Of a stretch of DNA of 34,446 bases, positions 17,233 through 34,446 are shown piece after piece. The first letter of the stretch is position 1; each line of letters starts with the position of its first letter. The stretch is from Proteobacteria bacterium TMED61 (GTDB lineage Bacteria; Pseudomonadota; Gammaproteobacteria; Arenicellales; UBA868): positions 9,475-43,920 of the forward strand of contig NHDO01000043.1 in the NCBI GenBank assembly GCA_002171735.1, written 5' to 3'. Under the pieces are notes generated by a model. That model did not search any database, was not told where the DNA came from, and saw only the letters and a program-made list of their open reading frames with translations. The position numbers were made by a program, and so were the translations under genes.

Positions 17233-17359
17233 ACGTCACTCTGTGAGGTTTTGTCAAAGCGCAATTTTAGCCGGATCAGTCAAAAACCGCTGCCGACCGG
17301 TACACTTGATCAACATCTGGGATAACGGCGGTGGCCGGAAGATCTTTGGAAAACCACGG

Positions 17360-18184
17360 ATGAAAAAAGAACTCGCGTGTCTGGTGATTCACGGGATTGG
17401 TCGGCAGAAGCCTGACTTTGCCGACGGCCTCGTTGCGGGGGTTTCAGCCCAGCTGCATGCGTTTGGTTATGACCCCGAAGTGGTGGCGTGGCAGTCGGTT
17501 TATTGGGATGACATTCTGCGTCCGGCGCAGGATGCCTACCTGAAAGCGGCCTATCAGAGCGCTGATCTCAATGCCCGGGCCGTTCGAACACTTCTGCTGC
17601 ACGCATTGGGTGATGCCGCCGGTTACCGGCAGCTGCCGTCGGGTAAAAGCCGCGGCGGCGAAGAGACCATCAGCTATCGACGTATCCATGAACGTGTAAG
17701 AGATGCAGTACGTTCTTTGTATCGTGAGCCGCTGGCCGGCCGGCCGGTGCCACTCGTGGTCGTCGCCCACTCTTTCGGCGGACACATTCTTTCGAACTAC
17801 ATCTGGGATCGTCAGCGGCGGCCAGACAAGCGCTTGTCGTCTTTTGAGCGCATGAATTGGTTGAGCGGCTTCATCACTTTTGGTTGCAATATTCCGCTGT
17901 TCACTTTTGCCTGCACGGAAGTGGTGCCGATCCGCTTTCCCCCACCCCGGTTGCCGGCGCACCTCAAGCGCAATGCACGCTGGCTGAATTTTTTTGACCC
18001 CGATGATGTTCTTGCCTGGCCGCTGAAATCAATCAATGCTGCTTATGCTGATGTGGTGCATAGCGACGAACGCATTCACGTGGGCGGCCCGGTGACTGGC
18101 CGGACGCCGGCAGCCCATCTTGCCTACTGGGATGACAGAAAGTTCGCCCGGCAGGTCGCAAAGTTTTTGGATACCCTGCTTTAA
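17360..18184 (+). CDS. Alpha/beta-hydrolase-like protein
   Basis: LVIHGIGRQ and VVVAHSFGGHILSNYIW; start at MKKELACLV. Confidence 0.65.
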   Translation: MKKELACLVIHGIGRQKPDFADGLVAGVSAQLHAFGYDPEVVAWQSVYWDDILRPAQDAYLKAAYQSADLNARAVRTLLLHALGDAAGYRQLPSGKSRGGEETISYRRIHERVRDAVRSLYREPLAGRPVPLVVVAHSFGGHILSNYIWDRQRRPDKRLSSFERMNWLSGFITFGCNIPLFTFACTEVVPIRFPPPRLPAHLKRNARWLNFFDPDDVLAWPLKSINAAYADVVHSDERIHVGGPVTGRTPAAHLAYWDDRKFARQVAKFLDTLL

Positions 18185-18332
18185 TCTGGAAGCTCTCATC
18201 GTGCATCAGGGAAGGTGTATCGGACGGCCCAATTTCCCATGTTTCGTGTGATGACCGTCACTGATGAAACGCCCGCGCTTTAGCATGATGCTACTCACGA
18301 TATGCAGATAACCGTGAGTGAGGGATTAGAAA

Positions 18333-18509
18333 ATGGAAATCATGGAACACCAGAGATTAGACGCAGAGAATACGTTTGCGATGATTACGGAACTGATCGA
18401 GATCGGTGTGCCGGTACAAAAGCTGCATCAGCAGGGTCTTACCGACTTTGACTTTGAGTATGTCGAGATGCACCCAGAGGATGGCCTGTGGTCGAATCCT
18501 TTTGACTGA
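18333..18509 (+). CDS. Small hypothetical protein, 58 aa
   Basis: Own translation: MEIMEHQRLDAENTFAMITELIEIGVPVQKLHQQGLTDFDFEYVEMHPEDGLWSNPFD; below ORF-track cut-off. Confidence 0.5.
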   Translation: MEIMEHQRLDAENTFAMITELIEIGVPVQKLHQQGLTDFDFEYVEMHPEDGLWSNPFD

Positions 18510-18637
18510 GCCGGTCATGCCGCCGGGTGTGACCGAGGCATCTCAGTGTTTCCTTTAAATTCGGGGATTTGCCTGTCATTTATGCCCCACCTTGATGCAA
18601 AATGGCGCCAGTTGATGCCAGCGAGGCACGAGGAGAT

Positions 18638-19828
18638 ATGACGACAGAATTGCTTGAACAGGCGCAGTCCCTACAGGAGCGCACAGTGGCCCTGCGCCGA
18701 GAAATCCACCAGCATCCCGAACTCGGCCTGCACTTGCCTAGAACCCAAAAGGCAGTGCTTGATTCGTTGCAAGGCCTGGATCTTGACATCCAGTTATCGA
18801 AAAACACCAGCGGCATCGTTGCGACACTGCACGGCGCAAACCCGGGTCCGGCGGTCCTGCTGCGCGGCGACATGGATGCGTTGCCCATGCCAGAAGAGAC
18901 CGGTCTGCCTTTTGCATCGGTGGAGCAGGGCTGCATGCATGCCTGCGGGCATGACGCTCATACCGCCATGCTGGCGAGCGCAGCCCATTTGCTCTATCAA
19001 CACAGGGAGCGGATCAGTGGCAGCGTGCGGTTTATGTTTCAGCCAGGTGAAGAGGGGCCGGGTGGGGCCAAGCCGATGCTCGACGAAGGCCTTCTCGATG
19101 CCGACGGCGCGCCGCAAGCTATCTTTGCTTTGCATGTTGAGCCGGAGCTGTCAGCCGGCACCATCGCTTGTCGTACGGGGCCAATACTCGCGGCGGTTGA
19201 TACCGTGTTTGCCCGTCTCACCGGAAAAGGGGGCCACGGTTCAATGCCGCACAACGCACTTGACCCGACGCCTGTCGCCTGTGAAGTCGTGCAGGCGATC
19301 CAGACGATGGTCACAAGACGTTTTGATGTGTTTGATCCAGTGGTGGCAACCGTCGGCCGAATCCAGTCGGGCACCACCAACAACGTGATTCCCGAATTCG
19401 CAGAGATGGAGATCACTCTGCGTTCACTGTCAGTACAAGCGCGTGAGCGCTTGGCAAAAGGGGTGGAGCAGTTGGTACGCCAGATCCCTGCCGCACATGA
19501 CCTTGAGGTCACCTTTGAAATTGAAAAGGGTTACCCCCCGACGGTGAACCATGACAGCGGAGCGCAGGCAGTCGCGCGGGCGGCAAAAGCCGTGCTCGGT
19601 GAGGAGCAGTATCTGCAGATGCCCACACCCTGGATGGGGGCCGAGGATTTTTCCTACCTGCTCGAACGCTTTCCCGGCGCTTTTGTTTTTCTCGGCGCGG
19701 CGCCGCTGGACGGTGAACCCCAGGCCTGTCATTCGTCAAGAATGCGTCTTAACGAGGCGGCATTTCCCGCGGGTGTGGCGATGTATGCCGCCCTCGCACT
19801 GCAGGAACTTGCCGACAAGCCAATCTGA
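18638..19828 (+). CDS. M20D-family amidohydrolase (hippurate hydrolase-like)
   Basis: LRREIHQHPELGLHLPRTQ, HACGHDAHTAMLASAAHLL, FMFQPGEEGPGGAKPML, WMGAEDFSYLLERFPGAFVFLG. Confidence 0.92.
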   Translation: MTTELLEQAQSLQERTVALRREIHQHPELGLHLPRTQKAVLDSLQGLDLDIQLSKNTSGIVATLHGANPGPAVLLRGDMDALPMPEETGLPFASVEQGCMHACGHDAHTAMLASAAHLLYQHRERISGSVRFMFQPGEEGPGGAKPMLDEGLLDADGAPQAIFALHVEPELSAGTIACRTGPILAAVDTVFARLTGKGGHGSMPHNALDPTPVACEVVQAIQTMVTRRFDVFDPVVATVGRIQSGTTNNVIPEFAEMEITLRSLSVQARERLAKGVEQLVRQIPAAHDLEVTFEIEKGYPPTVNHDSGAQAVARAAKAVLGEEQYLQMPTPWMGAEDFSYLLERFPGAFVFLGAAPLDGEPQACHSSRMRLNEAAFPAGVAMYAALALQELADKPI

Positions 19829-20036
19829 GACCGCTTGGGTTTTGTCCCGAGCTCGGGCCGAGACCCGCCGGGGACATGACATTTCCATGAAGGATTGTTG
19901 ACTGTTGCTCCAAGGCGCGCTGTAATGACCCAAGGCTGAAAATGCAGAGCACCTAGAGTTTAGAAGACCAAAGACGGATGCTTGAAATGTAATGAGCGTG
20001 AATCGCTTAAGCCACAACATAAACCGGGCATAGTCG

Positions 20037-20639
20037 ATGCGGTCTCCCAGAATCGATGCTCTGATCCTTGCTGCAGGGCGCTCGCTTCGAGCAGGAGGCC
20101 CCAATAAACTTTTACTCCCCTGGCAGGATAAAGCGGTTGTTGCGCACGCCGTCGATGCCGCGCTGGCGTCGCGGGTCAGCGCTGTTCATGTGGTGACGGG
20201 CCACGAACCTGCCCCCCTGCAGGAGGTGCTGAAGGGGCGGGACGTCAACTGGATTCACAATCCGAAATACCACAGCGGCATCAGCACCTCCATCAGCGCA
20301 GGTGTGACTCAGTTGCCTGATCAACTCGATGGCATGGTGCTCTGTCTTGGCGACATGCCGTGGGTGAGCGACCGACAGATCAACCGCTTGATCGATGGCT
20401 TCCGTCCGGACGCGGTCCGCGTTGCCTGCTTTGGCAAGCGCCGGGGACACCCAGCGCTCTTCCCCCGCGCCTGGTTTGGCAAACTGCTTGCCTTAACGGG
20501 AGACGATCTCGCGCGATGCCTTTTTGATCATCTTGCCTCAGCCGTTGTCGAAGTGCCCATGGCAAATGATGCGGTCCTGCGGGATGTTGATTACGAAGAG
20601 GACCTGATGCCAACGCCAGTTGGTATGATTGCGCAATAA
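20037..20639 (+). CDS. MobA-like/MocA-type NTP transferase
   Basis: ALILAAGRSLRAGGPNKLLLPW; MVLCLGDMPWVS; RRGHPALFPRAWF. Confidence 0.85.
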   Translation: MRSPRIDALILAAGRSLRAGGPNKLLLPWQDKAVVAHAVDAALASRVSAVHVVTGHEPAPLQEVLKGRDVNWIHNPKYHSGISTSISAGVTQLPDQLDGMVLCLGDMPWVSDRQINRLIDGFRPDAVRVACFGKRRGHPALFPRAWFGKLLALTGDDLARCLFDHLASAVVEVPMANDAVLRDVDYEEDLMPTPVGMIAQ

Positions 20640-20681
20640 TCAATTACGTGGCGGTGTTGATCGCCGACGGCCTATTTCAAG

Positions 20682-21125
20682 ATGAAGGACCTCAAACTCA
20701 TATTCAAGAACTTCGAAAAGACCTTAAGAAACTCTGTCTGGTTCGATGACGGTTGGGAAATCTATAACCGGGGCGTCTATCTCCAGCTTTACAAAAGTAA
20801 CTGGTACAACCAGAACCAAGGGGGAGTGCATTTCGAAACCTATATCGAAGCACCCCAGATAAAGAAAAAAAGTTTCCCGATCTGTTTCCATGCTGAGGAA
20901 GAGTGCCCCGCTCAGCAGACCTTTATCAGCCGATTCCTTGATTCCCATGGCGACGAGATCAGGGGTTGGAAGGGCTATCGGGTACAGGGGGACGGTTACC
21001 GTGTCTGCCAGCGCGAGCTGCCGCTCAACACCAAGAATTTGGAACAGCGTCTCGTTGAAGAGTTCAACCGGCTACGCCAGCTCGAGACTGGTATAGATCA
21101 AGCCCTGCAGGACATCCAGGGCTGA
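20682..21125 (+). CDS. Hypothetical protein
   Basis: 147-aa ORF with plausible composition; no family recognised. Confidence 0.6.
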   Translation: MKDLKLIFKNFEKTLRNSVWFDDGWEIYNRGVYLQLYKSNWYNQNQGGVHFETYIEAPQIKKKSFPICFHAEEECPAQQTFISRFLDSHGDEIRGWKGYRVQGDGYRVCQRELPLNTKNLEQRLVEEFNRLRQLETGIDQALQDIQG

Positions 21126-21171
21126 GCTATCCCCAAGTTTCCCCTTAAATTAAACGCTTTTCGGACATTAC

Positions 21172-21357
21172 GTGGGATCCCCTAAGAGCCCCTGTATCGA
21201 TATTTGTGATTTCCGCGGCCCGAAAGGGTGGTGTTTGGGCTGCGCACGCACCCGTGAGGAATGCCGAAAGTGGAAGGCGATGAAGCCCTACGCTCAGACT
21301 TTGCTGATTAAGGAACTCGGGAGAAGAAAAAAGAAATTGGCGATTCAACAGCGCTAA
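21172..21357 (+). CDS. DUF1289 family Cys-rich small protein
   Basis: SPCIDICDFRGPKGWCLGCARTREECRKW; GTG start. Confidence 0.9.
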   Translation: MGSPKSPCIDICDFRGPKGWCLGCARTREECRKWKAMKPYAQTLLIKELGRRKKKLAIQQR

Positions 21358-21466
21358 TCCCCAATTTCGCTGACGGAGGCGGCAGTTTGCAGAAAATAAA
21401 GCTATCTTTAGCCGGAATCAAACTGAAAACGCAAAAATCTCACTGTAATTCATTGAAATTATCCCT

Positions 21467-21494
21467 TTGACAATATGTTATAATATAACATTAT
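21467..21494 (+). promoter_or_regulatory. Putative scn promoter with overlapping palindromic operator
   Basis: TTGACA (21467-21472), 16 bp, CATTAT (21489-21494); extended -10 TGtTATAAT (21476-21484); perfect palindrome ATGTTATAATATAACAT (21475-21491). Confidence 0.6.
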
Positions 21495-21511
21495 CAGGGG
21501 ATTGATTTTTC

Positions 21512-21538
21512 TTATCCATGGGATAACGAGATAGTCTT
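21512..21538 (+). promoter_or_regulatory. LTTR-like box and shared motif, copy 1
   Basis: TTATCC-ATG-GGATAA dyad (T-N11-A) running into GGATAACGAGATAGTCTT (21521-21538). Confidence 0.55.
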
Positions 21539-21598
21539 GGAGAAATCATTTCTCCGCGGTATGTTGTTTCTACTTACTAATTTGGAGGCGTATTTCTA

Positions 21599-22066
21599 AT
21601 GTCTAACCGCGAAAATATCATGCGGCACCTCAATATTGTCGGCCAGTTGCAGCCGGCGCTACACCAGCCGCAGCACGCTCCAACTGGCGACATGATCGAT
21701 AACGCCCACTTTCGGGCGTATACGCGCGCTTCTCACGATGTTGGAGGTGAGGCGGACATTCCGATTACTTGGGAAGAGAAAGAAGAGGAGATCTGGGAGC
21801 ACAACACTTTTGTCACCTGTGAAGTCCTTGCCTGGCGTGGCGTCTGGAACGCTGAAGAGCGTAGGCGCCGCCAGAACGTCGATGTTGGACAGACGATATA
21901 TCTTGGCTTGCCCTACTACGGACGTTGGTTGATGACAATCGCGCTGATCCTTGTCGATAAGCAACATGTGAAACTGACAGAACTGATAGATAAGGTCGAG
22001 GAAGTTAAGCAGCGCGCAAGGAAACAGGACGGTCAACTTTATGATGCGAAGGGGCACGATTTATGA
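21599..22066 (+). CDS. scnB: Thiocyanate hydrolase beta subunit
   Basis: NHase-superfamily sequence resembling SCNase beta; SD GGAGG at 21584; gene order B-A-C. Confidence 0.88.
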   Translation: MSNRENIMRHLNIVGQLQPALHQPQHAPTGDMIDNAHFRAYTRASHDVGGEADIPITWEEKEEEIWEHNTFVTCEVLAWRGVWNAEERRRRQNVDVGQTIYLGLPYYGRWLMTIALILVDKQHVKLTELIDKVEEVKQRARKQDGQLYDAKGHDL

Positions 22067-22416
22067 GCAAGAGTCACCACGTAGAAAAGGCCACTGGGGT
22101 CGGTGATCCACAGTGCTTCAAAGGGGAAGCGCCCCCACCGAAGTTCAATGTGGGCGACAAGGTACGGATCCGTAACCTGCCGGATATCTTTTATACACGT
22201 TCTCAGATGTACCTACGAGAAGCCGAGGCCACGGTCGTGAAGCTGGTCTACGAAAGTCCGCCGGCAGAAGACGAAGCCTGGGATAACACCGATAGCCCAG
22301 AGTGGTTCTATAGCCTTCTTTTCAAGCAGACCGATCTTTGGCCGGATTACCCGAAGAGATTCGAGGCGGATACTCTGGAGACAGAACTTTCCGAGCGATG
22401 GCTGGAAGGACTCTAA
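22063..22416 (+). CDS. scnA: Thiocyanate hydrolase alpha subunit
   Basis: NHase-beta C-terminal-like FNVGDKVRIRNLPDIFYTRSQMYLR; ATGA overlap with scnB. Confidence 0.88.
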   Translation: MSKSHHVEKATGVGDPQCFKGEAPPPKFNVGDKVRIRNLPDIFYTRSQMYLREAEATVVKLVYESPPAEDEAWDNTDSPEWFYSLLFKQTDLWPDYPKRFEADTLETELSERWLEGL

Positions 22417-22466
22417 GGTCGATAACAAGACAATTAATTATCAGGAAGTGAAACGAGGAAAACGGC

Positions 22467-23174
22467 ATGTCAAATTCAGATAACCACGACCATAAAGCCG
22501 CTCCTATGGTGGATGAGATCAGTGACTTCGAGGCGCTGGAAGTTGCGGTCCGCGAACTCTGTATAGAAAAAGGACTGTTCACCCAAGATGACCATAACGA
22601 GTGGACGGAGTATATGCATACACTGGGTCCGCTCCCAGCAGCAAGGCTGGTTGCGAAAGCATGGCTAGATGACGATTACAAACAGTTGTGCATCGATGAC
22701 CCAGTCAAGGCGAGCCTGGAAGTCGGCATTGACTGGATCACCAGTATGCCCTCCAACTTTGGTACCCCAAGCGATTATTGCAACCCGAGAATTCTGGTTG
22801 ATGCTCCGAAACTGAAACACGTAGTGGTTTGCACGCTGTGTTCGTGTTACCCAAGACCGATTTTGGGTCAGTCGCCGGAATGGTATCGGACACCGAACTA
22901 CCGCCGCAGAATGGTACGGTGGCCCCGGCAGGTCTTGTCAGAGTTCGGTCTGCAGCTACCCGAAGATGTTGAGATCCGGGTTGCAGACTCCAATCAGAAA
23001 ACTCGCTACGTGGTTATGCCCGTGCGGCCTGAAGGGACCGACGGCTGGAGTGAGGATCAGTTGGCAGAAATCGTCACCAGGGATTGCCTGATTGGCGTTG
23101 CACAGCCACATCCTGACCGGAAGGTTGACGACAAACGACCTGTCATCCCCGCAATTCACCCCTACGGCCACTAG
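22467..23174 (+). CDS. scnC: Thiocyanate hydrolase gamma (cobalt-binding) subunit
   Basis: Claw motif VVCTLCSCYPRPILGQSPEWYRTPNYRRRMVRWPR. Confidence 0.95.
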   Translation: MSNSDNHDHKAAPMVDEISDFEALEVAVRELCIEKGLFTQDDHNEWTEYMHTLGPLPAARLVAKAWLDDDYKQLCIDDPVKASLEVGIDWITSMPSNFGTPSDYCNPRILVDAPKLKHVVVCTLCSCYPRPILGQSPEWYRTPNYRRRMVRWPRQVLSEFGLQLPEDVEIRVADSNQKTRYVVMPVRPEGTDGWSEDQLAEIVTRDCLIGVAQPHPDRKVDDKRPVIPAIHPYGH

Positions 23175-23183
23175 AGATTACCA

Positions 23184-23519
23184 ATGACCAAACCTATCCC
23201 TTTACTGGAGAAGATCGGGAAGGAAGGCCGGGTCTGGGGAGACCTTTGTGATCAATATGGAGTGGATAACCCAGATCCACCGTGGCGTGTCCTATTGGAG
23301 AGTACGTGTGAGGTGCTGAACGAAGGATCATGTGTGCTGCCTTCACTTGAGAGAAGAGACGAGGAAGACGACTTGGTCGATTCGCACTACCAACACATTC
23401 CACACCCTGAACGGCAGTTGCTGGCACTTGCTCACTCAATGATTCTCCGGGGAGTCATTACGGAAGAGGATCTTGAAAAACACGTGAAGACTGTGACAGC
23501 ACGACTGAATGCAGCGTAG
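23184..23519 (+). CDS. SCNase activator / nitrile hydratase accessory protein (P15K-like)
   Basis: EKIGKEGRVWGDLCDQYGVDNPDPPWRVLLESTCEVLNE; directly follows scnC. Confidence 0.75.
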   Translation: MTKPIPLLEKIGKEGRVWGDLCDQYGVDNPDPPWRVLLESTCEVLNEGSCVLPSLERRDEEDDLVDSHYQHIPHPERQLLALAHSMILRGVITEEDLEKHVKTVTARLNAA

Positions 23520-23633
23520 CAAATGTCGAATATGAATGCGATGTAGCGGCGATAAAGAGACAACGAGTTGTAGGGAGATTTTTATAAGCACTTAGCTTTA
23601 AGTACTAAGACTATATTTAACGGAGGAGCAAGC

Positions 23634-25049
23634 GTGGACATGAAAAAACAGTTATCGCAGGAAGGCAAGTTTCTCGCCGCGAAGGCAAAATCGCAGGCGA
23701 TTGAAAATGACATTTTGGACGAGGAAGAGGCCCAGTTTGTAGACGGCGGACCCGTTGATGAAAACGGACTCCCGTTGAATGCCAAGAATTTTGGAGACGT
23801 CATTGATGATCCGTTCCTTAAAATAAATTCGGATCCGCTGTTTGGTGGTTTTCTTGGGACGGGAATTAGTCGACGCTCGGTGCTTCAGACTGGTGCTGCA
23901 CTGGCAGGTGCTGGCCTTGGCCTCGGCAGCATGCCCGCTTTCGGCAAAAAGGCATTCGACCCTGTCGTCAACATCTGCTACATCCCGATCACGGATGCGG
24001 CAGCGCTCTTGGTCGCGCATGAACTGGGCTTCTTCAAAGAAGAGGGAATCGAGTCCAAGCGCCCAACCCTGATAAGAGGATGGTCTCCGCTTGTTGAGGC
24101 GTTCGCGGCCCACAAGTTCAACCTGACCCATATGCTCATCCCGATTCCGGTCTGGATGCGGTACAACAACAAGTTTCCTGTGAAGATTACGGCCTGGGAC
24201 CACAGCAACGGTTCGGCAATTGTGGTCAATCCGGAAATCAAGACACCCGCAGACTTCGGGGGTAAGCAGTTTGCCGTTCCTTACTGGTATTCGATTCATA
24301 ACATCGTTTCCCAGAAGATCATGAAGGAAGCAGGGATCACACCTGTGATCCGGGCGCAGGATGCGGCCTTGGCACCTAATGAATGTAACTTCCAGGTGCT
24401 GGCGCCGCCCGATATGCCACCCGCACTGGCTGCCAAGAAGATCGACGGATACTGTGTTGCCGAGCCGTTCAACGCGCTCGGTGAGATCAAAGCCGGCGGT
24501 AAGGTGTTGAGATTTACCGGTGACGTATGGAAAGGGCATCCCTGCTGTGTCGTGGTCATGCATGAAGATGATGCAATGGATCCCGACCGCGCGGCATGGG
24601 CGCAAGGTGTGCACAATGCTGTGGTTAAGGCCCAGCTTTACACCGGGTCAAACCGCAAGGAAATCGCACAGCTGCTGTCACGCGAGGGTAAGAAGTACTA
24701 TCCCTTCCCAAGCAAGGTAGTGGAGCGTGCGATGATGTTCTACGATCCGGCGTACTACAACAATCCAGCAGCGATTCGTCATACTGATTGGGGACAGAAC
24801 AGGATCGATTTCCAGGCGTGGCCTTATCCGTCTGCAACGAGGCTGGTCGTTAATGAGCTTAAAAACGAAACACTGGTTACAGGTGATCGAACCTTCCTTG
24901 ACACCCTGGATCCGGAGTTTGTCATCAACGATTTGGTGCAGTACGAATATGTAAGAAACGCGCTACTGGCCAATCCGACATGGAAAAACGATCCGAGCGT
25001 GCCGCAAGGAGATAACCCCTTCGAGCGCGAAGAGATTCTGGAGATTTAA
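23634..25049 (+). CDS. NMT1/SsuA/NrtA-like ABC substrate-binding protein, Tat signal after ~78-aa N-terminal extension
   Basis: SRRSVLQTGAALAGAGLGLG; VNICYIPITDAAALLVAHELGFFKEEGIE; SD ggagg at 23622; in line with scn operon. Confidence 0.85.
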   Translation: MDMKKQLSQEGKFLAAKAKSQAIENDILDEEEAQFVDGGPVDENGLPLNAKNFGDVIDDPFLKINSDPLFGGFLGTGISRRSVLQTGAALAGAGLGLGSMPAFGKKAFDPVVNICYIPITDAAALLVAHELGFFKEEGIESKRPTLIRGWSPLVEAFAAHKFNLTHMLIPIPVWMRYNNKFPVKITAWDHSNGSAIVVNPEIKTPADFGGKQFAVPYWYSIHNIVSQKIMKEAGITPVIRAQDAALAPNECNFQVLAPPDMPPALAAKKIDGYCVAEPFNALGEIKAGGKVLRFTGDVWKGHPCCVVVMHEDDAMDPDRAAWAQGVHNAVVKAQLYTGSNRKEIAQLLSREGKKYYPFPSKVVERAMMFYDPAYYNNPAAIRHTDWGQNRIDFQAWPYPSATRLVVNELKNETLVTGDRTFLDTLDPEFVINDLVQYEYVRNALLANPTWKNDPSVPQGDNPFEREEILEI

Positions 25050-25064
25050 CCTATTGCAACGGCA

Positions 25065-25088
25065 AGCCCCCGGAAGACTCCGGGGGCT
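25065..25088 (+). terminator. Intrinsic-terminator-like hairpin at end of the scn/SBP operon
   Basis: Perfect 10-bp arms AGCCCCCGGA-agac-TCCGGGGGCT, T-run at about 25097 (not immediately adjacent). Confidence 0.75.
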
Positions 25089-25526
25089 CCATCGCATTTT
25101 TCACCGCGCACTCGTTCGGTATCTTGCCTCAACTTCCTGGGGTAGCCGGTGTGACACTTGAGTCCCGGCAGTTGGACTAGTTTGGCTCTGCATAACGTCC
25201 TGTCGCGAGAGATTTAGAGGGGATCAGATTTGCTACAGCTCAGATGCCCACAAAACCTACTTTTCGAGCTTACAGCACTAAATTTTGGCTCGAGTGTTCG
25301 GTCTGATATTAGAGAAATGTTCAAAGTGTGCGTTTGCGATTGATTTTTCCTATAAAGCTCATCCGTTTTTCATCTCGTAATCGACCACTACAAACCATCC
25401 TTGTCTCGTAGACTCTTCGTGTCGAGATGCGCTTCATGTTTTGGACGATTTTTGGTAGAGAGATATGAAGTACAAGAATTTCACCGACCCAACGTATCCT
25501 TTCGGATGCACTGATCAGGTAGCGTG

Positions 25527-25919
25527 ATGACAAATAAACTTTCAATTGTTTGTGTTTCTGGGACACTAGAGAAACTGCAGATGGCCTCAATGGTTGCGTC
25601 GGTTGCTGCAGCAAGCGGTGACGAGGTCACTGTGTTTTTCTCGATGAACGCGTTGCAGTATTTCACAAAGGACAACGCTGAATTGGCGGCGCCAGAGGAA
25701 GGTGAGTTTGGCCGGCTAATTGAAACAGAGGGTGTGCCCGCTTTTCGTAAACTGTTTGAGCAGGCGGCGGACCTGGGGGATGCCAGACTGCTGGCGTGTT
25801 CGATGGCGCTGGATCTCATGAAAATCACTCCGGAAGACCTGACCCTTGAGTTCGGTCCAGCTACCGGGCTTACCGCTTTTCTGTCTGACGCAGAAGACGG
25901 CAGACTTCTTTCTTTTTAA
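25527..25919 (+). CDS. DsrE/DsrF-like family protein
   Basis: MTNKLSIVCVSGTLEKLQMASMVASVAAASGDEVTVFFSMNAL...LLACSMALDLM with conserved Cys codon at 25797-25799. Confidence 0.82.
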   Translation: MTNKLSIVCVSGTLEKLQMASMVASVAAASGDEVTVFFSMNALQYFTKDNAELAAPEEGEFGRLIETEGVPAFRKLFEQAADLGDARLLACSMALDLMKITPEDLTLEFGPATGLTAFLSDAEDGRLLSF

Positions 25920-25957
25920 CCCTATTGAGGCCGAGTCCACTAGTCAGGAGATAAATT

Positions 25958-26188
25958 ATGTCGGAAACCAAAGTCGTTGATGCGCGAAATACCTTTTGCC
26001 CGGGGCCTTTGATGGAGTTGATTTCCTTCATGAAGCGCGCAGAGGTCGGTGATCAGCTGGAGTTACTCTCGACTGATGAAGGTTCGGCGAATGATGTGCC
26101 CCAGTGGATAGCTAAGGTGGGCCATGAACTTGTCAGCAGCGAAAAAGTCGAGGATATATGGCACATTACCGTAAAGAAGATAAAGTAA
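25958..26188 (+). CDS. TusA-like sulfurtransferase
   Basis: VVDARNTFCPGPLMELISFMKRAEVGDQLELLSTD (CPxP motif). Confidence 0.92.
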   Translation: MSETKVVDARNTFCPGPLMELISFMKRAEVGDQLELLSTDEGSANDVPQWIAKVGHELVSSEKVEDIWHITVKKIK

Positions 26189-26230
26189 GCTAGAACAGGG
26201 TTTAATGTTCGTGATTCTGGAGTCAGGTCA

Positions 26231-27364
26231 ATGAAGATTTTATTTGTCGGCGGGGGCATGGGCGGCACTATCGCTGCCAATAACGTGGCAAGGCGACTCT
26301 CCCGGGAAATGAGAGAAGGGAAGGTCGAGATCACCATGCTGTCTGCGACTGATCAGCACTGGTACCAACCCGGTTTGTTGTATGTTGCCTTCGGGAAAAT
26401 GGGAATGAACGATATCGTCCGGGAGCAGTCCAGCCTGCTTGAACCCGGTATTCAGTTTTTTGTGGATCCCGTCGAAGAATTTGAACTGGCGCATAATAAG
26501 GTCAGAACTAAAGGTGGCGTGGTCCACGACTACGACATGCTGGTGATCGCTACAGGCTGTGAAGCCGTCTATGACGAGGTGCCTGGTCTCGAGGAAGTTT
26601 CGGAGACCCCGTATACCCGAGAGGGCGCGACTCGTATGTTCAAGCGCCTGCGCGATTTCGAAGGCGGCAAAGTCGCGGTGGTAGTTGGTGTCCCGCACAA
26701 GTGCCCGATCGCCCCAATCGAAATTACCTTCATGCTTCATGAGTTTTTCGAAAAGCGCGGTATCCGAGACAAGGTCGAACTGCAATACACCTACCCGATC
26801 GCTCGGATCCATAATATTGAGAACATTGCAAAGTGGGCGGTTCCTGAGTTCGAAAGAATGGAGGTCGACTACGAAACTTTCTTCAATATGAAGGAGGTCG
26901 ACGTCGAGAACAGGATCGTGCATAGCGAAGAAGGGACTGAAAAAGAGTTTGACCTTCTGGTCGCCGTTCCTCCGCATCGGGGCATGAAGGTGATCGAGGA
27001 AAATAATCTTGGAGAAGGCGGCTGGATCCCAACAGATCGCTATTCGCTGCAGATGGACGGCCAGGATAATGTTTTTGTGCTGGGTGATACCAGTAATCTT
27101 CCCATCAGTAAAACCGGCTCCACTGCGCACTTTCAGAGCGAAGTCATTGGTGAGAATATTGCTTCGATTTTCCGCACGGGCTCGGCGACTCGTGAGTACG
27201 ACGGGAAGGTCTATTGCTTTATCGAGGCCGATCAGAATCGTGCAACAAATGCTTGTTTCAACTACATCGATCCCCCTGAGATCAAGGCGCCAACCAAGTC
27301 CATGCACATGCTGAAGATGTCCTACAACCAGTGGTACTGGTCTTCCGCTCGCGGTCTGCTCTGA
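26231..27364 (+). CDS. Sulfide:quinone oxidoreductase-like FAD-dependent oxidoreductase
   Basis: FVGGGMGGTIAANNVARRL, YQPGLLYVAFG, VPHKCPIAPIE, FVLGDTSNLPISKTGSTAHFQ, YCFIEA. Confidence 0.88.
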   Translation: MKILFVGGGMGGTIAANNVARRLSREMREGKVEITMLSATDQHWYQPGLLYVAFGKMGMNDIVREQSSLLEPGIQFFVDPVEEFELAHNKVRTKGGVVHDYDMLVIATGCEAVYDEVPGLEEVSETPYTREGATRMFKRLRDFEGGKVAVVVGVPHKCPIAPIEITFMLHEFFEKRGIRDKVELQYTYPIARIHNIENIAKWAVPEFERMEVDYETFFNMKEVDVENRIVHSEEGTEKEFDLLVAVPPHRGMKVIEENNLGEGGWIPTDRYSLQMDGQDNVFVLGDTSNLPISKTGSTAHFQSEVIGENIASIFRTGSATREYDGKVYCFIEADQNRATNACFNYIDPPEIKAPTKSMHMLKMSYNQWYWSSARGLL

Positions 27365-27408
27365 TCATTGCTTGAGCCCCATGCCCGTACCCCAGATCTG
27401 AAATTACG

Positions 27409-27822
27409 ATGACTAACCCAGATACTCCAGCTTCCTCGAGCCAACCCCAGGACCTCGCCAAACTTATCGAACTGGCTGCAGCCATCTCGTCTGCGCAGGA
27501 TGCGATGACCGATGATATTGTCACCCGTCTCGCCAGTGCTATGGGGGAAGGCATGATTCTGATGGATCGGCTTACTCGAAATCAGGGCCTGATGTCGCTG
27601 CTGCAGGCGCTCAATCAACCCGCTGTTCAGGATAGCCTTGAGTGTCTTGCCGAGGCGCTGCGTTCGGGATCGGTAATGGAGGCGGTAAGTGCGAAGACAC
27701 CGAAAACTGGCGGCTATGGCGGACTATTGCGGATGGCAAAAGATCCCGACGTCCAGGATGCTATTTATACGCTGGCGAGAGTAGTTAAGGGAATGAACCC
27801 AGGCGGCGATCCGAAGAACTGA
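27409..27822 (+). CDS. DUF1641-like protein
   Basis: Helical ORF after SQR-like gene; LLQALNQPAVQDSLECLAEALRSGSVMEAV...GGLLRMAKDPDVQDAIYTLARVVKGM. Confidence 0.72.
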   Translation: MTNPDTPASSSQPQDLAKLIELAAAISSAQDAMTDDIVTRLASAMGEGMILMDRLTRNQGLMSLLQALNQPAVQDSLECLAEALRSGSVMEAVSAKTPKTGGYGGLLRMAKDPDVQDAIYTLARVVKGMNPGGDPKN

Positions 27823-27850
27823 TACCCGCTTTGGGCTGTCGGTGCTTTGC

Positions 27851-28321
27851 CTATTCCGGAGTTGGAATCAATCCGGGATGATCTTCAGGCCTGTGTCCCG
27901 GAGCACTCCAGAGAAATCTCCGATCAACCTCGCGGATACTGATGTCATTGATGCTGGCCTCGCGTCTTCGCATCAGGCCTTCATCAGAGAACTCCCAGAG
28001 CTCATTGCCATATGACCGGTACCAATTGCCATCTTCATCATGCCACTCATACTGGAAGCGGACCCCGATTCGATTGTCCGAAAATGCCCAGAGTTCTTTT
28101 ATGAGTCGGTAATCAAGCTCCCGTTGCCACTTGCGAGTTAAAAATTCGACGATCGCACCTCGCCCTTGAAAATGGTCCGAACGGTTTCTCCACACGCTGT
28201 CTTCCGTGTACGCAAGACTGACTTTTTCAGGGTCACGGGTGTTCCAGGCATTCTCTGCCATGCGCACCTTCTGGGCTGCAATAGATCGATCAAAAGGTGG
28301 CTTTAGGTCGGTCGGTTTCAT
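27851..28321 (-). CDS. DUF1348 (SnoaL/NTF2-like fold) family protein
   Basis: [59 protein letters not shown]...[11 protein letters not shown]; start [10 protein letters not shown]. Confidence 0.9.
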
Positions 28322-28487
28322 GGCTGGTTTTCCTCGAAATTCAGGAATCGTCTTTAAAGTCAGAGTATCATGAAGCGGCCAGATAAACGCGTCAAAGGAA
28401 GCCCCATCCAAGATGATTTGATTATCGACAGGGTAAGAAGATCGGATCCAAAGCTTGCATGACCGTAAATGACCATGTTCTGGGCGT

Positions 28488-28700
28488 GTGTTCTCGGTTG
28501 AATCGGCAGGGTCTGAAAGTGGCGTACACCAAAGCCGGTTCGAACGGGCAGCGCAGATATTGCACCGTCTCGGAGAGCTCCATCTGGAGGGCGTCAGCCC
28601 GTATCTGGACAGCGCTTTCCCGAACATTATCTTCTCAGAAGATTCTTTTGACGCAACGAAACTACAATCGCTTGGAGAAGAAATAAGAAGTATCTGCTAG
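28488..28700 (+). CDS. Possible small ORF or decayed gene fragment, 70 aa
   Basis: [61 protein letters not shown] start, no homology recognised. Confidence 0.25.
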
Positions 28701-28723
28701 CGGGCATTTAGTGAGAATCTGGA

Positions 28724-28852
28724 ATGGCACCTGAACATCTTCGGGAATCAGTGCCTAATCCAGTGATTCACATAACGGGCGATGCGTTTTATCTAGTGTC
28801 CCAGGTATTTGATGAATTCGAAAATCAGTTACCGCTTGTTCGAACCTATTGA
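28724..28852 (+). CDS. Possible small ORF upstream of cynS, 42 aa
   Basis: MAPEHLRESVPNPVIHITGDAFYLVSQVFDEFENQLPLVRTY; bounded by stops; weak SD. Confidence 0.22.
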   Translation: MAPEHLRESVPNPVIHITGDAFYLVSQVFDEFENQLPLVRTY

Positions 28853-28873
28853 TGACCACCCAAGGAGAAACCA

Positions 28874-29314
28874 ATGAATAAAGAAGCAATGAAAGATCAA
28901 ATAAAAGAAGCCAAACTGGAAAAGCAGTTGTCGTGGCAGCAGATTGCTGAGACGACATCGATGTCAACCGAGTTTGTAGTTTCGGCATGTCTCGGTATGA
29001 ATCATCTGGAAAAAGCGGATGCCGATGCGGTGGCCGCATGTCTTGGACTGCCGAACGAAGTATCGATTGCTCTGCAGCAATATCCCAACAAGAAGTGGGA
29101 GCAGACAGTGCCGACAGACCCCGCAATTTATCGGCTTTATGAAATTGTCGGGGTCTACGGTGAAACGATAAAAGAGTTAATTCACGAAGAATTCGGAGAT
29201 GGGATAATGTCTGCTGTCGATTTCAACATGACGTTGTCCCGGGAGAAGAGTGAAAAAGGAGATCGCGTTCACTTGAGCTTGAGCGGCAAGTATCTGCAAT
29301 ACAGTTCTTGGTGA
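28874..29314 (+). CDS. cynS: Cyanate hydratase (cyanase)
   Basis: YRLYEIVGVYGETIKELIHEEFGDGIMSAVDF retains catalytic Arg/Glu/Ser; SD aaggag upstream. Confidence 0.97.
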   Translation: MNKEAMKDQIKEAKLEKQLSWQQIAETTSMSTEFVVSACLGMNHLEKADADAVAACLGLPNEVSIALQQYPNKKWEQTVPTDPAIYRLYEIVGVYGETIKELIHEEFGDGIMSAVDFNMTLSREKSEKGDRVHLSLSGKYLQYSSW

Positions 29315-29373
29315 AAGCGCTTAGTCAAACGGATTTTCAAGAATATCCTTGACATCGATTACCCTTGCGCACC

Positions 29374-30624
29374 ATGGATGCAAAAACCAAAAGCGTCTTC
29401 CTGGATTCAATTTTGTATGTAGTGGTTGGCGCCACAATTGGATCAGTGATGGCGCTTGCGGCTGGGTCGTTTCTTTATGTTGCAGAATTCTTGAGTGCGT
29501 TTTCTGATCCTTCGGAAAACCTAATAAGTGATCAGTGGTCGCGCTTCGTACCGCTGGTCTTTATGGTGGTTGCCGCATGCTTGATTCTGGTGCTGAGACG
29601 AACGCTGGGCCTCAAGCGGTTTCACTCGCCGGGTGAGACCATTGCAGCAGTACAGTCGGAACGACCCATTGATATCAAGGCGGGCCTTGCCTCCACTCTT
29701 GCAGCCTTGATCTCGGTCGGCGGCGGTGCATCGGTCGGACAATACGGGCCCCTAATGCATTTTGGCGGTACCGTGGGTGCTGCCGTTGCGAAAACTATCA
29801 AAACCAGAATTCCCCGTGAGATCTGGATTAGTTGCGGCGTAGCAGGGGCAATTGCTGCGGGCTTTGGAGTGCCCCTCGCGGCGATTGTCTTCAGTCATGA
29901 GGTCGTCCTGAGACGTTTTTCGGTGTCGGCGATCACGCCGATCTCAATTTGCGCCATCACTGCGGCGATATTATCGGATCAGTTTAATTTCGGCGGTAGA
30001 CCCTACTTCGATGGACTGGTTGATGATCTCACGATTGAGTTTTTGCCATTGATCATACTGAGTGCACCAGTTTTCGCGATTACAGCTGTGGTGTTCATGA
30101 GCCTGCTGGGAAAGACAATGGATAAGGTTGACCAACTGGCTAATGCGCCGGCGTGGCCCTTGATGCTTGCTGCACTTTTCTGCGGAGTTGTGGGACTTTG
30201 GGTACCGGGGGCGCTAGGTCTTGGACTCGATGTCATCCCGGATTTTCTCACCAATAATCTGCCGATTGCTGCGGTGGTCATTCTGGTGATTACCAAACTG
30301 GTACTTACCATTGCCTGTGTGGGTACTGGGATACACGGGGGAATCTATCTGCCCTCGCTCTTTATGGGTGCGGGCGTAGGAAGTCTCCTGGGTAAGCTTG
30401 CGGCCACTATGGGGATGGCGAGTGGAGCGGGCCTTAGTCTCGCAGGAATGGCGGCTGTCGCGGCTGCTGTCTTTGGCGCGCCGATTTCCACGGTACTGAT
30501 CATTTTTGAGTTCACACGTTCATACGAGGCAGCACTGCTCTCAATCGTCGCGGTCACGATCTGTACCTTGATCTCGCATCAACTCTATGCTCCGTCTTTT
30601 TTCGACAGACCTAGTAAAGACTGA
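29374..30624 (+). CDS. CLC-family anion channel/transporter lacking canonical gating and internal glutamates
   Basis: SVGGGASVGQYGPLMHFGG; FGVPLAAIVFSHEVVLRRF; HGGIYLPSLFMGAGVG; FEFTRSYEAALLSIVAV. Confidence 0.9.
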   Translation: MDAKTKSVFLDSILYVVVGATIGSVMALAAGSFLYVAEFLSAFSDPSENLISDQWSRFVPLVFMVVAACLILVLRRTLGLKRFHSPGETIAAVQSERPIDIKAGLASTLAALISVGGGASVGQYGPLMHFGGTVGAAVAKTIKTRIPREIWISCGVAGAIAAGFGVPLAAIVFSHEVVLRRFSVSAITPISICAITAAILSDQFNFGGRPYFDGLVDDLTIEFLPLIILSAPVFAITAVVFMSLLGKTMDKVDQLANAPAWPLMLAALFCGVVGLWVPGALGLGLDVIPDFLTNNLPIAAVVILVITKLVLTIACVGTGIHGGIYLPSLFMGAGVGSLLGKLAATMGMASGAGLSLAGMAAVAAAVFGAPISTVLIIFEFTRSYEAALLSIVAVTICTLISHQLYAPSFFDRPSKD

Positions 30625-30649
30625 GTCTGATCGGGCCCTCGTCTAGGGG

Positions 30650-31588
30650 TCAGTGTTTGCGGTCTGGCGTGAACGCGTCCGGGAGTTTCCAAAGCAGGGC
30701 GAGCCGGAGAAAAGCATCAGTTGCCCGGCTCCGGTACGCCGCCTTCCGGATAATGATCGTAGCCGTGTGGGTGGGCAGCGCGGGCTCGACCGGGATTGCA
30801 ACCAGGTCATCCACGGAGGCGACGATCGAGCCCGGTAAAATAGTCCTGAAGCCTCCACGCTTGACCATCTCGATGAGAAAACCCAGCGAGTTCGCTTCCA
30901 GGGTGACCCTTGGGCTCAGACCGTGGGACGCGAAGTAGGCATCAATCTGCCTGCGCATCTCAAAGTGGGTTTCCAGTAAAGCCAACGGGTGTTTTGTCAA
31001 CTCGATCAGTGGGTCCTGATGAGGGCTTTCTTCGTTCGTGTTCACGGCCTTGCTTGATGCCAGAACGAGAGAATCCTTGCTCAGCGTCATCGTCTCAAGT
31101 TCGTCACGCCCTGTTGTCAGCGACGTCTGGTTGCTGAACATGACGCCCACGTTGGCATTATCCTGGAGTACGGCCTCCTCGACTTGGTGCTGCGTCATCT
31201 CTTTAATGTCGAGAGAAATGTTGGGATGCTGACTGACAAACTCCTGAATCAGGCTTACTGTGAGATAGTCTGTAATGGGCGTCAGCGCAAGGGAGACACT
31301 GCCACGTGAAAGATCGCTTAGGTCATCCAGCGCGTCGGAGGCCGCATTGATTTCAGCTAGCGCCCGCTCCACATGGCGGACATAAAGTTCCCCGGCGTCT
31401 GTCAGGTGCACATTTCGTCCCGAGCGTTCCAAGAGTTGCACCCCAACCTGCTCTTCCAGCTGTTTGATCTGCTGAGACAGGGCGGGTTGGGAGACAAAGA
31501 GGGATTCCGCAGCCCGCGTAAAACTCGAGCACTCCGCAACTGCCAGAAGGTACTTCAACGATCTTGGAAAAATAGCGGTACGGTTCAT
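30650..31588 (-). CDS. LysR-family transcriptional regulator (CynR/CysB-like group)
   Basis: N-terminal HTH SLKYLLAVAECSSFTRAAESLFVSQPALSQQIKQLEEQVGVQLLERSGRNVHLTDAGE. Confidence 0.95.
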   Translation of the reverse strand: MNRTAIFPRSLKYLLAVAECSSFTRAAESLFVSQPALSQQIKQLEEQVGVQLLERSGRNVHLTDAGELYVRHVERALAEINAASDALDDLSDLSRGSVSLALTPITDYLTVSLIQEFVSQHPNISLDIKEMTQHQVEEAVLQDNANVGVMFSNQTSLTTGRDELETMTLSKDSLVLASSKAVNTNEESPHQDPLIELTKHPLALLETHFEMRRQIDAYFASHGLSPRVTLEANSLGFLIEMVKRGGFRTILPGSIVASVDDLVAIPVEPALPTHTATIIIRKAAYRSRATDAFLRLALLWKLPDAFTPDRKH

Positions 31589-31644
31589 CTTTTATATAAT
31601 TAATTTAGGCTGGTTTCTTGATCAATCGACCCTACCGATAATCG

Positions 31645-31682
31645 ATAGGAAATTCCTATTCCGTGGATAACGAGATCGTCTT
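31645..31682. promoter_or_regulatory. LTTR-like palindrome and shared motif, copy 2
   Basis: Perfect dyad ATAGGAAATTCCTAT (31645-31659, T-N11-A) followed by GGATAACGAGATCGTCTT (31665-31682). Confidence 0.55.
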
Positions 31683-31926
31683 CACCGGAATCAGAAGATC
31701 GTTTAATGTGCGAGTATCTTATTAAATGTGGCAAGTATGTCAGTTACTTCTTATACTAGATTCAAATAAAAATAAAACGTCTTATAAGAAAACGTTATTT
31801 AAAATATTTTTTGTATAAGGTTTACTTTTATAAAAAATAAAAACTGAAGTAGTTTTAGCTTTCGTTGCGTCCGTCTAGCCGGGGCGTACGATCGTTTTTC
31901 ACAGAAAAAGCAGAACAGGAGGAAGG

Positions 31927-32694
31927 ATGAGCAGAAGTGGCGTACAGATCTCTGTTCAGGATTTAACCCATCGGTATTCGTCCCGCGGGCCGGTGACGTT
32001 TGATCAGGTCAATCTGGAGTCCACACCGGGAGAGGTTCTCGCCATCATTGGCCGGTCAGGCTGCGGCAAGTCCACGCTGCTCCACATTATGGCCGGATTG
32101 TTGGCGCCGAGCTCTGGCAGCATTCGACTGAACGATGTCGAGATTAAAGAGCCCTCTCCGAAATGGGTCATGATGTTCCAGGCGCCGCATCTTTTTCCGT
32201 GGATGCAGGTCAGTCAGAACGTCGGGATCGGACTGAAGTTTGCCAGTTTTGCAGAGGACAAGATTCGCGAGCGGGTAGAAAAAACCATTAAGCTTGTCGA
32301 CCTAGAAGAGTTTGCCGAGTCGAATGTGCAAGATCTTTCAGGAGGACAGCAGCAGCGTGTCGCGCTGGCACGCTCGCTTGTCATGGAGCCGGAAATGCTG
32401 CTGCTTGATGAACCGTTCTCTGCCCTAGATGCGTTCACTCGTGCTTCCCTGCAAAAAGACGTGCGTTCTATCGCCAAGAGCATGGGTATCAATCTGGTGA
32501 TTGTTACCCACAGTATCGATGAGGCAGTTTTGATGGCGGATCGGGCGGTGATCATGGCGGGCTCTCCCGGCAAGATCAAGGAAGAGATTCTGGTCGAGTT
32601 GCCAGAGGAGAGGACTGCACAGGATCCAGAAGTTCAGAGGATCCGGGCACATCTCATGGAGACCTTCCGCCAGGCCTCCACCGAGACCCACTGA
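31927..32694 (+). CDS. ABC transporter ATPase, nitrate/sulfonate/taurine type (SsuB/TauB-like)
   Basis: Walker A GRSGCGKST, signature LSGGQQQRVALARSL, Walker B MLLLDEPFSALD. Confidence 0.95.
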   Translation: MSRSGVQISVQDLTHRYSSRGPVTFDQVNLESTPGEVLAIIGRSGCGKSTLLHIMAGLLAPSSGSIRLNDVEIKEPSPKWVMMFQAPHLFPWMQVSQNVGIGLKFASFAEDKIRERVEKTIKLVDLEEFAESNVQDLSGGQQQRVALARSLVMEPEMLLLDEPFSALDAFTRASLQKDVRSIAKSMGINLVIVTHSIDEAVLMADRAVIMAGSPGKIKEEILVELPEERTAQDPEVQRIRAHLMETFRQASTETH

Positions 32695-32813
32695 CCGCAG
32701 CGGGTTTTCCTCGTTCATCCCCGGATCAGGATCAGAAACGTGTCAGGTGTAATGGCTCCGAGCAGGCACAAACACAGATCAAACCGTTTGACTAAGGCAT
32801 CGTTTATCTAGAT

Positions 32814-33632
32814 ATGGCCGCTGAGATCAATCCCAATCAGGCACCTGCAGCAGCCTACGAAGTGCTCGTGATGCTGTTGCGCCGGGTGTTGTTCAGCGCG
32901 CTGGGTCTTGGGGTTCTCTTTGCCCTTTGGTGGTTTGGCGGCTGGTTGCTCGAAAGCAACCCCGCGACCATGAGTTTTGCAGATTTTGGGCCGTTCCCAA
33001 CTTTCGACGCAGTGCCTTACATGGTTCAGTCCGGGACATTGCTGGACGCAAGTCAGGCGAGTGGATATCGCCTCGGCATAGGTCTGTTGCTTGCCATTAT
33101 CACGGGAGTTCCTATTGGCATCCTCATGGGCAGAAGTAACGTTTTTCGCAAACTGAGCAACACGCCCTTTCAGTTTCTGCGGATGGTCAGCCCTTTGTCT
33201 TGGGAGCCGATCGCAGTGATCGCCATGCCCACGTGGGACCAGGCCATTATCTTCCTGATCTCGATGGCTGCGGTGTGGCCGGTGGCATTTGCCACTGCGG
33301 CTGGACTCGCCAAGTTGGATCCCGCGTGGTTCAAAGTCGCCCGCAACCTCGGTGCCAGTTGGTGGAACATCCTGAAGGAGATTATTCTTCCCGCCATTGC
33401 CTTTGACGTGTTGACGGGTATCAGGCTCGCGCTGGGTGTCGCCTGGATTGTTATTGTTCCCGCAGAGTTTCTGGGGATCACATCGGGCCTGGGTTACACG
33501 ATCCAGGACTCTCGTGAGAACCTGATGTATGCCGACCTTGCGGTCACGATTCTCGTGATCGGATTTATTGGATTTATTATGGATGGCATATGCCTAGCCT
33601 TCATCAAACGATTCAGTTGGCACCGTGGCTAG
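32814..33632 (+). CDS. ABC transporter permease (SsuC/TauC/NrtB-like), first paralogue
   Basis: SGYRLGIGLLLAIITGVPIGILMGRS; multiple TMs; EFLGITSGLGYTIQDSRE. Confidence 0.92.
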   Translation: MAAEINPNQAPAAAYEVLVMLLRRVLFSALGLGVLFALWWFGGWLLESNPATMSFADFGPFPTFDAVPYMVQSGTLLDASQASGYRLGIGLLLAIITGVPIGILMGRSNVFRKLSNTPFQFLRMVSPLSWEPIAVIAMPTWDQAIIFLISMAAVWPVAFATAAGLAKLDPAWFKVARNLGASWWNILKEIILPAIAFDVLTGIRLALGVAWIVIVPAEFLGITSGLGYTIQDSRENLMYADLAVTILVIGFIGFIMDGICLAFIKRFSWHRG

Positions 33633-33650
33633 CGAACCCTAAGCGATACG

Positions 33651-34446
33651 ATGATCAATAAAGCACAAGAGTCCGGATTCGTCGCCAGAACATGGCTGAT
33701 CGATCATATCGCGTACCCTGCGGTTGGCTTTGCGATTCTGATAGGCCTTTGGGCCATTGGTGGCTGGTTTCTAGAGAATAACCCCGCGACCAGCAGTTTT
33801 GTGAAGTTCGGTTTAGTGCCGACGATGCAGGCGGTACCCGGCCTGGTTTCTTCTGGATACGTTACCGAGCACGTGATTGCAAGCGGATATCGTCTTGCGA
33901 TTGGTCTTTTTCTCGCAATCCTGATCGGTGTCCCGATCGGGATTTCGCTCGGCCTCAGCAAGATTACCGAGCAGATTACCAATGAACCATTCCAGTTGCT
34001 AAGGATGGTCAGCCCTCTGTCCTGGATGCCAGTGGTGGTGTTCGTGTTTCCCAAGTGGGATCAGGCCATAATCTTTCTCATCGCTGTGGCAGCAATCTGG
34101 CCGGTAATTTATGCGACAGCGGCGGGGCTCAAGAAGGTGGATCCGGCGTGGTTCAAGGTTTCCAGGAACCTTGGAGCGAATTTCTACAAGATGCTCGCAC
34201 AGGTAATTTTTCCTGCGATTGCTTTTGATATCTTTACCGGAATCCGCCTGGCGCTTGGTATCGCTTGGGTAGTGCTTGTGCCTGCAGAACTGCTGGGGGT
34301 AAGTTCTGGCCTTGGATACGCGATCAAGGACGCGCGCGAAACCCTTGCTTATGACCACCTGACAGCGATCGTTGTCGTTATCGGCATTATGGGGTTCACC
34401 CTGGACGCCATAATTGGTGTTCTGGTGAGAAAGTACAGCTGGCAAA
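33651..34446 (+). CDS. ABC transporter permease, second paralogue (incomplete at window end)
   Basis: Own translation MINKAQESGFVARTWLIDHIAYPAVGF...NPATSSFVKFGLVPTMQAVPGLV...SGYRLAIGLFLAILIGVPIGISLGLS...VRKYSWQ with no stop; missing from ORF track. Confidence 0.92.
   Translation, partial: MINKAQESGFVARTWLIDHIAYPAVGFAILIGLWAIGGWFLENNPATSSFVKFGLVPTMQAVPGLVSSGYVTEHVIASGYRLAIGLFLAILIGVPIGISLGLSKITEQITNEPFQLLRMVSPLSWMPVVVFVFPKWDQAIIFLIAVAAIWPVIYATAAGLKKVDPAWFKVSRNLGANFYKMLAQVIFPAIAFDIFTGIRLALGIAWVVLVPAELLGVSSGLGYAIKDARETLAYDHLTAIVVVIGIMGFTLDAIIGVLVRKYSWQ

Follow-up and report, generated by a model that had tools for sequence, protein, structure and literature searches.

Gene content of the locus

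We examined a 34,446-nt stretch of DNA (the window; bases 9475-43920 of a 60.7-kb contig) from Proteobacteria bacterium TMED61, a marine, presumably sulfur-oxidizing gammaproteobacterium represented by a metagenome-assembled genome (MAG) of 2.6 Mb and 84% completeness. The window carries genes for a thiocyanate hydrolase (SCNase) together with those for an ABC transporter, a sulfur-relay module, and a cyanase. Relatives of this host are MAGs labelled Acidiferrobacteraceae, and the record titles of the close ones (TaraRedSea, SI039 and similar) indicate an origin in marine plankton. Gene identities were assigned by Pfam, NCBIfam and PDB searches of the window proteins. For comparison, 80 SCNase loci were retrieved from GTDB genomes using the scnC protein, and each window gene was then searched in every locus. 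Counts of co-conservation refer to the 45 non-mycobacterial loci outside the window's lineage that extend at least 7 kb before and at least 9 kb after scnC (full-flank loci); L and G numbers denote loci and genomes. An original prediction, made from the sequence alone, had proposed a thiocyanate and cyanate utilization island at 21467-34446. The database matches found all of the genes it named in their places; its limits were too narrow, the island beginning at ∼20645 and ending at ∼34866, and a DUF1348 protein and a MurB-like remnant were added to its contents. The features are as follows (coordinates, strand, assignment, evidence); the TusA gene lies below the 80-residue minimum of the list of open reading frames (ORFs).

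20645..34446 (right end ∼34866, past the window), no strand: SCN island, present or absent as a unit (empty-site comparison, GC)
20682..21125, +: 147-residue protein at the left end of the island (no Pfam match)
21599..22066, +: scnB, SCNase beta subunit, nitrile hydratase (NHase) beta N-terminal half (PF21006, 64 bits)
22063..22416, +: scnA, SCNase alpha subunit, NHase beta C-terminal half (PF02211, 68.5 bits)
22467..23174, +: scnC, catalytic cobalt-binding gamma subunit, CTLCSC (TIGR03887; PDB 2dd4)
23184..23519, +: P15K-like SCNase activator (∼54% identity to the L063 ORF; adjoins scnC in nearly all loci)
23634..25049, +: ABC substrate-binding protein, twin-arginine signal SRRSVLQ (NMT1_2, 116 bits; NrtA 2g29 fold)
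25524..25919, +: DsrE-like sulfur carrier (PF13686/PF02635)
25958..26188, +: TusA-like sulfurtransferase, CPGP motif (PF01206, 69.5 bits; alignment)
26231..27364, +: SQR-like flavoprotein (NF049943, 306 bits; PDB 8dhk, 118 bits)
27409..27822, +: DUF1641 protein, partner of the SQR module (PF07849; adjacent in SCN and non-SCN loci)
27851..28321, -: DUF1348/SnoaL-like protein (PF07080, 217 bits)
28476..28748, +: decayed MurB-like remnant (44% over 91 residues, in-frame stop)
28874..29314, +: cynS, cyanase (PRK02866, 188 bits, cut-off 150; PDB cyanases)
29365..30624, +: CLC-family anion channel/transporter, GQYGP for GREGP (PF00654, 220 bits; alignments)
30650..31588, -: CynR-type LysR regulator, divergent from the ABC ATPase gene (PRK11242, 311 bits, cut-off 277)
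31927..32694, +: ABC ATPase, nitrate/taurine type (PF00005; TIGR01184, 198.6 bits, below cut-off)
32814..33632, +: ABC permease 1 (PF00528; ntrB and SaoP models below cut-off)
33651..34457, +: ABC permease 2, end read in L096, window ending at 34446 (PF00528; ntrB model below cut-off)

Thiocyanate hydrolase and its conserved neighbors

Sequence comparison unambiguously predicts that scnC encodes the catalytic subunit of a cobalt-type SCNase. The protein scores 362 bits against TIGR03887 (cut-off 291), and its metal motif CTLCSC (CxxCxC) is intact; the beta-like subunits are split as scnB and scnA, with 68% and 63% identity, respectively, to their counterparts in Thiobacillus thioparus DSM 505 (L063). 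The alternative of a nitrile hydratase was ruled out by the PDB scores, T. thioparus SCNase (2dd4) giving 420 bits and the highest-scoring nitrile hydratase 177 bits. The P15K-like protein matches no family model and is ∼54% identical to the ORF at the same position in T. thioparus DSM 505; it lacks an N-terminal stretch and a 12-residue, one-cysteine segment found in T. thioparus and Thiohalophilus. Elsewhere in the MAG, contigs C47 and C91 encode two further proteins with an NHase beta C-terminal domain, and C91 also holds an NHase-alpha-like match with 43% identity to scnC.

Gene-neighborhood analysis across genomes, which the original prediction had proposed as its check, did not refute it: in other genera, dozens of SCNase loci have most of these genes as neighbors. 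P15K is present in all 45 full-flank loci, the LysR gene in 43, the four ABC genes in 42, the DsrE, TusA, SQR and DUF1641 genes in 41, cyanase in 33 and DUF1348 in 14. The CLC gene is indeed a member of the island, as predicted, and is a lineage-specific addition, occurring in all four full-flank loci of the window's lineage and in none of the 45 outside it. DsrE-TusA-SQR-DUF1641 follows SCNase in L050, L057 and L061, where no ABC genes were found, whereas several loci (e.g. L074) have SCNase and ABC genes and lack the sulfur module; the ABC and sulfur modules therefore join SCNase separately. Two full-flank mycobacterial loci hold SCNase and P15K only. The island joins modules that also exist apart, namely SCNase in Mycobacterium, the SQR module in sulfur oxidizers that lack SCNase, and mostly cyanase-linked relatives of the ABC system.

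Island boundaries and history

The island is one discrete unit, present or absent as a whole. In the congener G014 (L147), DNA with 92% identity to window positions 15992-20644 and 34867-40514 (coordinates continued past the window) flanks a segment of 1.2 kb, compared with 14.2 kb in the window, and the uninterrupted site recurs in four further congeners, five altogether. The 1.2-kb segment holds a 309-residue ORF (L147 4799-5728), HPP-like as judged from sequence alone; L150, L151 and L152 have homologs (59%) in the equivalent position, and L148 has a fragment. On the right, the junction (permease 2, an RNA-binding protein gene, MsrP-MsrQ) is identical in G002, G016 and G017. The G+C content is ∼49-54% within the island and 54-59% (mostly 56-59%) outside it, and scnC of at least 90% identity is found in 6 of 20 congeners, the window's genome included. 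The joint presence or absence of all these genes, those of the transporter among them, supports a common function. At its left end, the 147-residue protein adjoins scnB in L004, L007 and L008 and is not matched in L147 and L148, which lack the island. The MurB-like gene is ∼300 codons long in L004 and L008, compared with the remnant with an in-frame stop in the window.

The sequences would fit either loss of the island in G014 or its never having been present there. Recent horizontal exchange with the sister lineages of L004 and L007 was considered and is unsupported: fourfold-site identity to these loci is 19-49% in the island and 42-50% in the flanks, so that synonymous divergence is equally near saturation inside and outside. 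No tRNA gene occurs in the window or L096, and tRNA-associated integration was thus rejected; no integrase or transposase was noticed among the ORFs, in which no dedicated search for them was made.

ABC transporter and binding protein

The substrate-binding protein was modeled with AlphaFold (mean predicted local distance difference test score 80; residues 31-103 not confident). Fold ranking of the model places NrtA first (2g29), followed by a binding protein of S. aureus and by the CmpA family, before SsuA and TauA; the NrtA/CmpA proteins share its fold at ∼16-20% sequence identity. The twin arginines R80 and R81 are invariant across 28 aligned binding proteins. NrtA/CmpA-type proteins bind small inorganic anions, and because the modeled fold is of this type, it favors a small inorganic anion as ligand, with SCN- and OCN- both compatible.

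A survey of 274 Gammaproteobacteria genomes for homologs of the binding protein found sequences of at least 65% identity in four, all with SCNase. In the three genomes besides the window's, the gene lies ∼2 kb or less from scnC; in the fifth SCNase genome of the survey, scnC is at a contig end. A second tier of binding proteins, 49-59% identical, has no SCNase nearby, and cynS is present in six of nine such loci; most second-tier loci also contain an ABC ATPase, a permease, a sigma-54 regulator, OsmC, an acyl-CoA-dehydrogenase-like protein, DUF302 and a rubredoxin-fused reductase. Genome G095 carries both kinds of binding protein. The ABC system of the island would import thiocyanate, with cyanate or both anions as alternatives in view of these mostly cyanase-linked relatives.

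The second-tier cluster of L108-L112 and L114 (L113 partly), all from Gammaproteobacteria, has a binding protein 52-55% identical to that of the window over the alignment and a sigma-54/GAF regulator. Cyanase is mostly nearby and rhodanese is present in L114; no SCNase was seen in these loci, one being located elsewhere in G095. The cluster possibly represents an undescribed cyanate, cyanide, or thiocyanate pathway.

Sulfur module, cyanase, and CLC protein

The CPxP motif of TusA is conserved in the alignment. Two cysteines of the SQR-like protein align with a cysteine pair of human SQR (PDB 8dhk, 118 bits) that we take to be the catalytic one; the closest named model, NF049943 (type III, selenoprotein exception), gives 306 bits, below its cut-off of 525. 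We rejected the idea that the SQR module is specific to thiocyanate: an SQR homolog occurs without SCNase in 13 of the 274 Gammaproteobacteria genomes, and it is always accompanied by DsrE, TusA and DUF1641 in the six loci examined that lack SCNase (L138, L140 and L143-L146). Elsewhere in the MAG, dsrA scores above its cut-off and is adjoined by a dsrB-like gene.

The cynS product aligns with PDB cyanases at the active-site R, E and S residues, and the LysR protein scores above the curated CynR threshold (equivalog PRK11242). In the CLC protein, GREGP of ClC-ec1 is replaced by GQYGP, as also in L004, L008 and L009, so that the gating glutamate (E148) is lost, and the position of E203 reads V. 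In one of the two CLC alignments the E. coli ClC-ec1 row was entered by hand; the other shows the GREGP site independently. In ClC-ec1, E148Q abolishes H+ pumping and E203A retains some (PMC7253180). By analogy with E148Q, the GQYGP motif makes it plausible that this CLC protein would provide an uncoupled anion pathway.

Comparison with known systems

Nearly the same gene set has been described in T. thioparus DSM 505, namely scnABC, a hypothetical gene, four NitT/TauT ABC genes, DsrE/F, TusA, SQR and a further hypothetical gene, preceded by genes for cyanase, a methylase and a cobalt transporter (Berben et al. 2017, PMC5328954); the combination is therefore not new. The layout in Tv. thiocyanodenitrificans is similar (PMC5328954), although in strain ARhD1, compared by its published description, no cyanase directly precedes SCNase and the cobalt uptake system is a different one. 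Rahman et al. (PMC5458468) mention a conserved scn operon, crediting Kantor et al. 2015. In our own comparison, L063 shares with the window scnB-scnA-scnC, P15K, four ABC genes, DsrE, TusA, SQR, DUF1641, cyanase and a CynR-like LysR gene, the proteins being ∼40-76% identical. The order differs: in T. thioparus, ATPase, binding protein and both permeases follow P15K unbroken and cynS and LysR lie upstream, whereas in the window the binding protein alone follows P15K and the ATPase and permease genes are displaced by ∼7 kb, behind cynS-CLC-LysR. The displaced order also occurs in G016 and G017, and in G002 when read across L004 and L153. The window's CLC and DUF1348 genes were not found at L063, nor were the methylase and cobalt-transport genes of L063 in the island. 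We likewise found no match in the window to cbtA/cbtB, the proposed cobalt transporter genes; L004 and L008 carry them at the site equivalent to 25049-25524.

The CynFABDS system of Pseudomonas pseudoalcaligenes CECT5344 (PMC6627978), compared by description, also combines an ABC transporter with cyanase for cyanate, but has a sigma-54 regulator, CynF, in place of the LysR/CynR type, and no SCNase. A literature search found no SCNase in Acidiferrobacter, and one symbiont of a deep-sea clam has been reported to carry both thiocyanate hydrolase and cyanase (PMC11171427). Judged by its sequence, the island is a rearranged, CLC-bearing variant of the published Thiobacillus cluster and not a new system. 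What this locus adds is a discrete ∼14.2-kb unit of lower GC, the displaced ATPase and permeases, a lineage-specific CLC gene and the lack of a cobalt transporter.

Proposed function and alternatives

The enzyme identities, the co-conservation, the discreteness of the island and the dsrA gene of the genome are established by sequence, and we consider that the locus is probably a thiocyanate-utilization island of the carbonyl sulfide (COS) pathway. We infer the transported substrate, the COS step, the direction of sulfur flow and the regulation as follows. A Tat-exported binding protein and its ABC transporter would import thiocyanate, and perhaps cyanate too; the P15K-assisted cobalt SCNase would convert SCN- to COS and NH3; and COS would yield CO2 and sulfide, through a separate enzyme or, at a slow rate, carbonic anhydrase. 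The SQR-like protein would oxidize the sulfide, sulfane sulfur passing via TusA and DsrE to a reverse Dsr system whose genes lie elsewhere in the MAG, while cyanase would release ammonium from co-imported cyanate and the CynR-type LysR protein may act as the regulator. Of these steps, support is weakest for COS hydrolysis, and with it for the connection between SCNase and the sulfur module. The original prediction of an island coupling SCNase, ABC transporter, sulfur relay with SQR, cyanase and regulator is upheld by their co-conservation; its cyanate detoxification is not, since SCNase yields COS and NH3, not cyanate, and the pathway does not imply it.

Several observations weigh against this reading. 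The MAG, as assembled, yielded no RuBisCO, which makes autotrophic growth on thiocyanate doubtful, no COSase-like enzyme and no CbtA, cbtA/cbtB being present in 28 of the 80 SCN loci; its single beta-carbonic anhydrase is closest to canonical enzymes. The genome is only 84% complete and the absences accordingly carry little weight. Beyond SCNase loci, most of the closest relatives of the ABC system lie near cyanase, and its main substrate may therefore be other than thiocyanate.

The ABC transporter, cyanase and CynR could instead form a cyanate-acquisition unit joined to SCNase, with thiocyanate entering otherwise, e.g. through the CLC protein or by leakage. The LysR protein is a CynR equivalog encoded divergently from the ATPase gene, cynS lies in the same stretch in six of the nine closest ABC relatives outside SCNase loci, the NrtA/CmpA-type fold resembles that of nitrate and bicarbonate binders, and this class is known to include cyanate transporters (PMC6627978). 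In most loci, however, the ABC genes directly follow P15K, and cynS lies upstream and is absent from 12 of the 45; moreover, L108 and L111 hold a second binding protein (22-23% identical to the window's) and an ABC ATPase near cynS, which suggests that the cyanate role there belongs to another transporter. We regard this explanation as unlikely. Nitrogen scavenging, in which thiocyanate and cyanate give ammonium and the sulfur module merely clears toxic sulfide, seems to us somewhat unlikely: RuBisCO was not found in the MAG, the Mycobacterium SCNase occurs without sulfur or ABC genes and the regulator is of CynR type, but 41 of the 45 loci contain DsrE-TusA-SQR, and reverse-Dsr genes occur in the genome. 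That the genes are functionally unlinked and adjacent by chance is highly improbable; the CLC, DUF1348 and 147-residue proteins are lineage-specific or patchy, whereas the core genes recur in many genera and the block occurs as a whole or not at all, which contradicts it.

More speculatively, the ABC system could belong to a family of importers dedicated to linear pseudohalides (SCN-/OCN-), common to SCNase islands and the separate cyanase-linked cluster with OsmC, acyl-CoA-dehydrogenase-like protein and rubredoxin reductase, and the CLC protein, free of the gating glutamate, could passively conduct SCN-, OCN- or Cl- in this marine group. The two proposals together are unlikely. The literature cited here names no thiocyanate importer, and the locus offers a short list of testable genes; a COS-forming, ammonium-releasing pathway would also be placed in a lineage with relatives in the marine plankton.

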